A DNA stretch of 64,000 nt from Acidobacteriota bacterium. Lineage in GTDB: Bacteria; Acidobacteriota; Terriglobia; Bryobacterales; Bryobacteraceae. The stretch's first letter is position 1. Every line of letters begins with the position of its first letter. Both the position numbers and the translations under genes were made by a program. The notes below the pieces were generated by a model. It had not been told where the DNA came from, ran no database searches, and saw nothing but the letters and a program-made list of their open reading frames with translations. The stretch spans positions 1-64,000 of the forward strand of contig JANXRE010000104.1 in assembly GCA_025353165.1 (NCBI GenBank). The letters run 5' to 3'. Shown piece after piece: positions 43,557-48,122 of this stretch.

Positions 43557-44330
43557 CTACAACCCGTCAATCGCGCGAAGGACCGTGTTCGGATGGGTTC
43601 GCGAGATGATCGACTCCGCCAGGTAGACCCAGCGGATCGTTCCCGCCGCATCCACCAGAAACTCGCCCGGACGCGCGATATCGTTTCCTTCCTGGCTCCC
43701 CTTGGGATGCAGCACGCCATACTTTCGAATTGTCTCCGCCTTCGGATCCGACAGGAGCGGAAACGTGTAGCCGCGGCTCGCGCAGAGTTTCCGCGACTCC
43801 TCGTTCGAGTCGACGCTGATGGCCACCACCTCGGCGTGGCGGGCGTGAAAATCCGCAATGCGCTTCTCGAAGCTCCGCAACTCGGAGTTGCAGAGCGGTC
43901 ACCAGTATCCGCGATAAAAAATCAGCAATACGGCGCGATTCCCCTGCCGCAGTTGGGACAACGTCACCGGTTTTCCGTCGATCCCCGCGAGCGTAAAATC
44001 GGGCGCTTGCTGCCCGGCCCGGGGCGCGCCCGTTGCCGCCGGAATATTTCGTGCGGCATAGAAAACGCCGAAGCAGAATAGCCCGAAGAGCCCAAGGCTA
44101 ATCAGAGCGGCCAGACTCCCGCCGATTCTCCCGCGATACGCCTCCGGCCGGCGGAAAGCGCGATTCAGCCCGATCCCGAGCAGGCACCCACCCGCCAGAA
44201 ACAGCAGCAGGTTCGCCCAGGGAAAGTCGCGCGTCACTGCAAAAGGCACGAAGACCGGAATGTAGCTCAAGGCGGCCAGCAAAGCCACCGCGAGACCAGC
44301 CCACAACGCCCAATTCCAACTTCGTCTCAT
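43557..44330 (-). CDS. Probable selenoprotein: membrane-anchored AhpC/TSA redoxin with in-frame TGA
   Basis: 257 residues when the TGA at 43901-43899 is read as selenocysteine (residue 144). Three helices (about 9-29, 37-57, 69-92) anchor the N-terminus. A thioredoxin-fold redoxin domain follows: QQAPDFTLAGIDGKPVTLSQ, then LLIFYRGYW-U-PLCNSEL, where relatives have WCPxC. The resolving Cys is residue 147. The rest, VVAISVDSNEESRKLC and YTFPLLSDP, is intact, continues in the same frame and ends normally, so only this codon interrupts it. The ATG at 44330 is the best start. The role is probably thiol peroxidase or disulfide exchange at the membrane. It is divergent from tatA. Confidence 0.78.
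43862..43895 (-). promoter_or_regulatory. Candidate bacterial SECIS region, redoxin 1
   Basis: Downstream of the TGA on the minus strand, a stem GCTT/AAGC with loop CGAG sits 29 bases after the stop codon, with G as the second loop base, within the usual bSECIS spacing. A stronger 10 bp stem (43895-43886 with 43882-43873, loop CCG) lies closer to the TGA and shares one base with it. Which fold is used is not decided by eye. Confidence 0.45.
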
Positions 44331-44419: not shown

Positions 44420-44602
44420 ATGTTAAGGTCCATAGGCTTGCCCGAGCTCCTGGTGATCTTGGCCGTCGCCGTTCTGCTGTTCGGCGGCAAGAAGATCCCC
44501 GAGGTGGCGAAAGGTTTAGGCGAGGGGATTCGCAACTTTAAGAACTCGCTGAAAAGCGAAGATCGCCCCGAGGACCACCCCGAGGACAAGGACAAGAAGT
44601 AG
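44420..44602 (+). CDS. tatA: Sec-independent protein translocase subunit TatA
   Basis: 60 residues. The layout is classic TatA/E: a short N-terminal membrane helix ([20 protein letters not shown]) with [12 protein letters not shown] hinge, an amphipathic helix ([15 protein letters not shown]) and an acidic-basic tail. TatA forms the translocation pore for folded proteins with twin-Arg signals, of which this window encodes several. It starts with a strong AAGGAGG ribosome site. A bidirectional terminator separates it from the convergent HU gene. Confidence 0.95.
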
Positions 44603-44677
44603 ACTTGCGCTTCCGGAAGCTGCCCGCAATTTGGGCGGACTTCAATCTTCGGCTGATCCCGAAATTTCCACGTTAAA

Positions 44678-47112: not shown

Positions 47113-48122
47113 TCCGGCTTGCGGCGATGTTGTTCTCGGCGGCGGCCGCGATCCGGACCGGACCCGCTGTCGGCGACAAGATTCCATCCTTTGAAGCCGT
47201 CGATCAGAGCGGGAACAAGCAGACGCTCGCCTCGATTGCCGGTCCGAAAGGAGCGATGCTCGTTTTCTATCGCTCGGCGGACTGGTGACCGTTCTGCAAA
47301 GGTCAGCTCGTGGAGCTGCAGCGGAACCTGACAAAGATCCGGGCGCAAGGCTTGGGCATCGCGGCCATCAGCTACGACAGCCGCGCTGTGCTGGAGGATT
47401 TCGCCAAGCGCCGCGGCATCGGCTATCCGCTCCTCTCGGATCCGAATTCGGCGATCATCCGGGCGTTCGGAATCCTGAATGAATCGCCTCCCAAGAACTC
47501 GCCGTTCTCCGGCATTCCCCATCCCGGCACCTACATCGTCAGCCCGGACGGAGTAGTCACGGCGAAATACTTCGAGGAGGATTTCCGGGAGCGCGACACC
47601 GCCTCCGAGATTCTGGTGCGACAGTTCGGAGCCTCCGCCGAAGGGGACAAGCAGACCGTCGAGACGAAGCATTTGACGCTCGTATCTTCGGCCAGCGCTG
47701 AAACGGTGCGCGGCGGCCAGCGGATCGCCCTCGTTCTGGACTTGGAGCTGAAGCCGAAGATGCACGTCTACGCTCCAGGCGTGGCGAATTACATTCCGGT
47801 GGAATGGACCCTGGCCGCCAATCCGGCGGTAACAGCCGGCGCAGTGGAATATCCGAAGGCGGAGGTGCTGGAGTTGCCCGCCATTGGCGAGAAGGTTCCG
47901 GTCTACACGGGCCGCGTTCGCCTGGTGCGGGAAATGATAGTCGGTCAGAACGCATCGGGTGCGGGCGGTGTTCTAACCGTGGCGGGAGCGTTCCGCTACC
48001 AGGCTTGCGACGACCGGCAGTGCTTTATACCCGTGACCGTGCCGCTCGAATGGAAGTTGAAAGTGGAGCAGCACGACCGCGAGCGCGCTCCGGCCGAAAT
48101 GCAGCGCAAGCCGCCGCGGTAG
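47109..48122 (+). CDS. Probable selenoprotein: exported AhpC/TSA redoxin fused to a DsbD-alpha-like domain
   Basis: 337 residues when TGA 47286-47288 is read as selenocysteine (residue 60). The GTG at 47109 overlaps the CocE stop and gives a signal peptide (IRLAAMLFSAAAA). The redoxin domain reads VGDKIPSFEAVDQSGNK, then LVFYRSADW-U-PFCKGQL, with the resolving Cys at residue 63. IAAISYDSRAVLEDFAKRRG and YPLLSDPNS follow in the same frame. A second domain (about 180-325) ends FRYQACDDRQCFIPVTVPL, matching the DsbD N-terminal domain with its Cys pair at about 300 and 305. The protein probably handles thiol-disulfide or peroxide reduction in the periplasm, the second domain acting as its electron partner. 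Confidence 0.8.
47304..47318 (+). promoter_or_regulatory. Candidate bacterial SECIS hairpin, redoxin 2
   Basis: A perfect 6 bp stem (CAGCTC / GAGCTG) with loop GTG begins 16 bases after the TGA; the loop starts 22 bases after it. The loop opens with G then U, as required by the bacterial SECIS consensus for SelB recognition. It is located inside the coding sequence, as in E. coli fdhF. Confidence 0.65.

Follow-up and report, generated by a model that had tools for sequence, protein, structure and literature searches.

The locus considered here lies on the minus strand at positions 43557 to 44330 of the window (the whole 64,000-nucleotide stretch of Acidobacteriota DNA that was analysed), and it raises the question of whether the single in-frame TGA in its redoxin gene ends the protein, marks a decaying gene, or is read as selenocysteine (Sec). 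Sec at residue 144 had been proposed in an earlier note, and the proposal is supported: the UGA is apparently read as Sec, since a full Sec machinery, a conserved RNA signal, and the retention of UGA in more than 100 relatives across phyla all point to this reading. The gene is almost certainly a real selenoprotein gene, its product probably being a membrane-anchored thiol/selenol oxidoreductase of peroxiredoxin (Prx) fold with a UxxC motif, in which UGA 144 would be read by SelB. The evidence on machinery, TGA conservation, RNA hairpin, and fold is computational. Gene callers would normally truncate the redoxin gene at the TGA.

Gene Structure and Reading Frame

The coordinates given in the earlier note are correct, and the strand, which it left unstated, is minus. 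Its description of the frame also holds: codons 1 to 143 are open, the only TGA stands at codon 144 (43901-43899) within the motif FYRGYW-U-PLCNSEL, and 113 further codons follow in the same frame down to a TAG at 43557, giving a protein of 257 residues including U144. Selection at the protein level is alike on both sides of the TGA, as pN/pS among the six closest orthologues is 0.37 in the redoxin part before it and 0.40 in the remainder after the hairpin (0.43 in the membrane part and 0.25 in codons +1 to +12), and this similarity argues against both a decaying gene and a split into two proteins.

Conservation of the TGA among Relatives

The homologue searches imposed no TGA: a collection was scanned with two peptide patterns that omit the Sec residue, and further members came from a profile search of 396 genomes of the phylum. 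In the homologues whose alignment takes in the redoxin domain as well as the membrane part, the codon aligned with positions 43899-43901 is TGA in 107 of 108 and TGC in the remaining one, never TAA or TAG; the lone TGC sequence (L176) is distant (30% identity) and has no three-helix part. The five nearest orthologues, found among 121 genomes, are full length, share 55-70% identity, and carry exactly one TGA each. Further lesions in the gene, or a sense codon other than Cys in a relative, had been named in the earlier note as evidence that would speak against Sec; the closest orthologues have no additional in-frame stops, and no full-length-type relative has such a codon. The same note had described Cys as the family residue that Sec replaces in Sec-decoding bacteria, a description that does not extend to the true orthologues, which always have TGA. 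In more distant redoxins devoid of the membrane part, the aligned codon is TGA or encodes Cys or, in the TxxC peroxiredoxins, Thr. The partner of the Sec in the UxxC motif, Cys147 (43890-43892), is conserved in all 96 distinct sequences, and both UxxC and the C-terminal half stay in register across all orthologues.

The members belong to Acidobacteriota and Verrucomicrobiota, together with a small number of bins that bear the label Myxococcota or Pseudomonadota, and the nearest relatives are Solibacteraceae/Bryobacterales (Acidobacteriota). In a midpoint-rooted tree of 81 members, in which several odd phylum labels correspond to metagenome bins, the Verrucomicrobiota rows are nested among Acidobacteriota rows, a pattern that would fit transfer between phyla, without being proof of it. 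No conserved gene neighbour common to the whole family was found in the flanks of its loci; only the Verrucomicrobiota members have a shared neighbourhood, consisting of what we take to be genes for an oligopeptide-transporter-like protein, a coiled-coil protein, and a YchF-like GTPase.

The SECIS Hairpin

Downstream of the TGA, a bSECIS-type core, AACTCCGAGTTGCGGAG (43873-43889, minus strand), forms a CUCCG/CGGAG stem with an AGUUG loop placed 16 nt after the TGA. Across relatives this hairpin, CUCCG[AGUUR]CGGAG, spans +12 to +26 with 16 nt spacing and a G at loop position 2, and the stretch from +10 to +26 is AACTCCGAGTTRCGGRG or a same-stem variant in 87 of the 96 distinct sequences. The stem positions (+12 to +16 against +22 to +26) are paired in 434 of 435 cells, versus 255 +/- 10 expected when the same proteins are encoded with random synonymous codons, and 86 of the 87 sequences pair the whole stem, versus 3.7 expected on the same basis. 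The variant AACCTCGAGTTRCGAGG alters both arms, from CUCCG/CGGAG to CCUCG/CGAGG, a compensatory change with covariation at two pairs. Codons +4, +5, +6, and +8 have almost no synonymous freedom (AAC 78/78, TCC 76/77, GAG 85/86, and CGG/CGA only, respectively), whereas nearby Arg, Leu, and Gly residues use three to five codons each. The RNAalifold consensus of the 87 sequences is this same CUCCG/CGGAG stem. In a smaller subclass the hairpin is CUGCA[AGGUU]UGCAG and lies about 7 nt farther downstream.

The loop AGUUR, which starts 16 nt after the UGA and has a U after the G at position 2, matches the published bSECIS model (PMC13188914). The published limits are a loop of 3-9 nt with a G at its first or second position, a stem of 4-16 bp, a distance of 16-37 nt from the UGA, and an energy of at most -7.5 kcal/mol. 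The geometry of the window hairpin (loop AGUUG, 5 bp, spacing 16) is within these limits, and its bare, uninterrupted stem, at -5.8 kcal/mol, does not reach the limit of -7.5. Among the relatives, 50 of 96 hairpins pass -7.5 and 94 of 96 pass -5 kcal/mol, and all limits together, energy included, are passed by 50 of 96, versus 2.7 with random synonymous codons. A search of the hairpin against Rfam gave no credible match.

The earlier note had listed two candidate stem-loops within bSECIS range, and one of them, CUCCG-AGUUG-CGGAG, indeed shows synonymous-site conservation and compensatory changes. Folded by itself, the window copy has a different structure of lowest energy, a longer overlapping stem with an energy z of -1.2, which is not unusual, and a consensus fold with only three to four close relatives favours the competing stem as well; it is here that the RNA evidence for the window copy taken alone is weakest. 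As a SECIS candidate, the overlapping GCAACU/AGUUGC stem was set aside because relatives lose some of its pairs (it is complete in 54 of 87, versus 86 of 87 for the CUCCG/CGGAG stem), whereas the CUCCG/CGGAG stem covaries.

Selenocysteine Machinery

A search of the genome for selA, selB, selC, and selD, suggested as a check in the earlier note, found SelA (481.2 bits, cut-off 268), SelB (377.9 bits, cut-off 242), SelD (361.6 bits, cut-off 125), and tRNA-Sec (74.7 bits, cut-off 47), all above the curated cut-offs. The selD of this genome (L019, G000:C12:96638-97546, minus) itself has one in-frame TGA, in KAAG-U-ASK, which we take to be the place of Sec in selenoprotein SelD, and this SelD is probably a selenoprotein too. 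SelB is present in all five genomes of the nearest orthologues, two of which have it only in fragments, and it exceeds the cut-off in 18 of 20 further carrier genomes, Verrucomicrobiota included. In three gene-bearing genomes, those of L168 (G466), L131 (G518), and L111 (G519), SelB was not found above the cut-off, plausibly through the incompleteness of these bins, if not through real loss. In the phylum sample, SelB occurs in 41 of 42 genomes with a TGA-bearing match versus 7 of 13 with stop-free matches only (Fisher p 0.0004, from a hand count that ignores kinship). Six genomes whose homologues are stop-free gave SelB-like matches of about 190 bits. These were rejected; they resemble EF-Tu (about 400 aa), so these six genomes appear to be without SelB, and the same EF-Tu-like match also stands beside true SelB in other genomes.

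Alternative Readings of the TGA

If the TGA were a Cys codon mutated in a decaying gene, a single in-frame stop is what the window copy would present; the probability of such a pseudogene is nevertheless negligible, given that the TGA persists in 107 relatives across phyla without ever becoming TAA or TAG, that purifying selection is equally strong before and after it, and that synonymous sites downstream of it are conserved. An assembly error is very unlikely in view of the TGA of the relatives. A true stop, which would leave a membrane protein of 143 residues followed by a separate protein or an untranslated remnant, draws some support from a TTG-started ORF of 107 codons in the mechanical ORF list. 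It would nonetheless split the redoxin fold within its active-site motif, across which PF00578 matches, in a family where UxxC and the C-terminal half keep their register in all orthologues and no other stop codon replaces the TGA, and we regard it as highly improbable. Hardly any more weight attaches to decoding of the TGA as a residue other than Sec, whether through insertion of a standard amino acid on read-through or through reassignment of the code; this is possible in principle, but 46 of 106 homologues with a visible end terminate at TGA, which is therefore an ordinary stop in these organisms, and the full Sec machinery and the SECIS-type hairpin downstream also oppose it.

Membrane Anchor, Fold, and Proposed Mechanism

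The three membrane helices and the AhpC/TSA domain described in the earlier note are both borne out. Hydropathy and the AlphaFold2 model (mean pLDDT 92.9, pTM 0.83, from a 29-row alignment) place helix 1 at residues 7-27 (44250-44312), helix 2 at residues 38-60 (44151-44219), preceded by a conserved TRDFPW loop, and helix 3 at residues 68-94 (44049-44129), next to the redoxin domain; in the model the helices are followed by a thioredoxin/peroxiredoxin fold. The domain, residues 106-234 (43629-44015), matches Pfam AhpC-TSA (PF00578) at 2e-34 and 118.7 bits, and PF08534 at 3.5e-24, both matches spanning the TGA, and the best Foldseek matches of the model are the peroxiredoxins Bcp4, AhpE, and PrxQ (TM 0.80-0.91 by target length). 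The N-terminus and the loop between helices 2 and 3 are rich in Arg and Lys and thus positive, and by the positive-inside rule the redoxin domain most likely faces the periplasm.

From these data we infer the actual insertion of Sec, the topology, the chemistry, and the substrate, as follows. Directed by the hairpin that starts 12 nt past the UGA, SelB carrying Sec-tRNA(Sec) would decode codon 144, and the three helices would hold the redoxin in the inner membrane. Sec144 probably acts as the attacking nucleophile, with Cys147 as its resolving partner, and a Sec144-Cys147 selenenylsulfide may form during the reduction of disulfides (or peroxides) at the membrane surface. The pairing with Cys147 suggested in the earlier note can be refined: in a profile alignment to solved peroxiredoxins, U144 takes the Thr/Ser of TxxC, and Cys147 takes the position of the peroxidatic Cys.

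This alignment also bears on the function. Arg140 occupies the Pro position and Pro221 that of the catalytic Arg, so three of the four positions of the canonical signature (PxxxT/SxxC plus catalytic Arg) differ, Cys147 being kept, and the signature is mostly replaced by a thioredoxin-like W-U-x-x-C. A thiol:disulfide oxidoreductase at the membrane surface is the favoured function on these grounds, with a peroxidase as the alternative. The peroxiredoxin fold and the peroxidatic position of Cys147 speak for a Sec-dependent peroxidase at the membrane surface, and the substitutions by Arg140, Sec144, and Pro221 speak against it, a point qualified by the invariant Arg220 adjoining Pro221; such a function is a serious possibility, if the less probable of the two.

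Comparison with Known Families

The Prx-like thiol:disulfide oxidoreductase selenoproteins (PF00578, UxxC/UxxU; PMC1794560 Table 1, PMC13188914 Table 1) form an established family, most of which is uncharacterised. The window protein shares with them the AhpC/TSA domain, the UxxC motif (U144-P-L-C147), Sec-decoding bacterial hosts, and the status of a confident prediction that is uncharacterised; it differs in the N-terminal three-helix part with its conserved TRD(F/I/V)PW loop, and in that every full-length member examined is Sec-coded. As far as a table entry permits the comparison, the redoxin family protein selenoprotein (PF08534, UxxC; PMC13188914 Table 1) has the same Redoxin match and the same motif. 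The peroxiredoxins AhpE and PrxQ (Bcp) (1xvw, 3hjp, 2cx3) have the same fold and peroxidatic Cys position, but they lack a membrane part, and their PxxxTxxC and catalytic Arg are not kept in the window protein. In NCBIfam, no model scores above its cut-off for the window protein and none fits the whole family specifically; the best match, NF040769 (SelL-related redox protein), covers the first 100 domain positions at 63.1 bits against a cut-off of 120.

In the reviews consulted, no subfamily with a membrane anchor is named, and neither Acidobacteriota nor Verrucomicrobiota is mentioned. Literature searches, confined to papers and mostly outside subscription journals, found nothing relevant on the family in Acidobacteriota or Solibacter, nor any description of the three-helix subfamily or its Sec-only state. 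The gene is apparently a new, three-helix, membrane-anchored, Sec-only form of the Prx-like thiol:disulfide oxidoreductase (UxxC) selenoproteins. There is a reasonable likelihood that it represents an unnamed Sec-only family of such redoxins in Acidobacteriota and Verrucomicrobiota, with a nearly frozen SECIS, that would act as a Sec-obligate periplasmic enzyme of soil bacteria. The family indicates membrane-bound, selenium-dependent redox proteins in common soil phyla and, with a Sec codon in every full-length member and a nearly invariant SECIS core, offers an unusually clean study case, in which SelB recognition in Acidobacteriota can be tested, as can the question of why Sec is not replaced by Cys. 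Further members can be sought with the pattern FYRGYW-TGA followed by AACTCCGAGTTRCGGRG.

Other Loci in the Window and the Genome

A second selenoprotein candidate in the window, absent from the earlier note, lies at 47127-48122 (+), with a TGA at 47286-47288; it joins a redoxin with the motif FYRSADW-U-PFCKGQL to a DsbD_N-like domain (PF11412), has a hairpin CAGCUC[GUG]GAGCUG 21 nt past the TGA, and has one-TGA homologues in many relatives. Elsewhere in the same genome, a peroxiredoxin (L059, G000:C109:72554-73027, minus) carries FFPAAFTGG-U-TKE, the PxxxTxxU form of a Sec-peroxiredoxin, and a redoxin (L069, G000:C105:150389-150589, plus) carries GSYT-U-PPFRREVP, which presumably resembles deiodinase-like selenoproteins. 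Upstream of the redoxin gene and divergent from it, the window also contains a small ORF at 44420-44603 (+), named TatA/TatE-like by eye from its sequence, with one sigma-70-like site on its strand.
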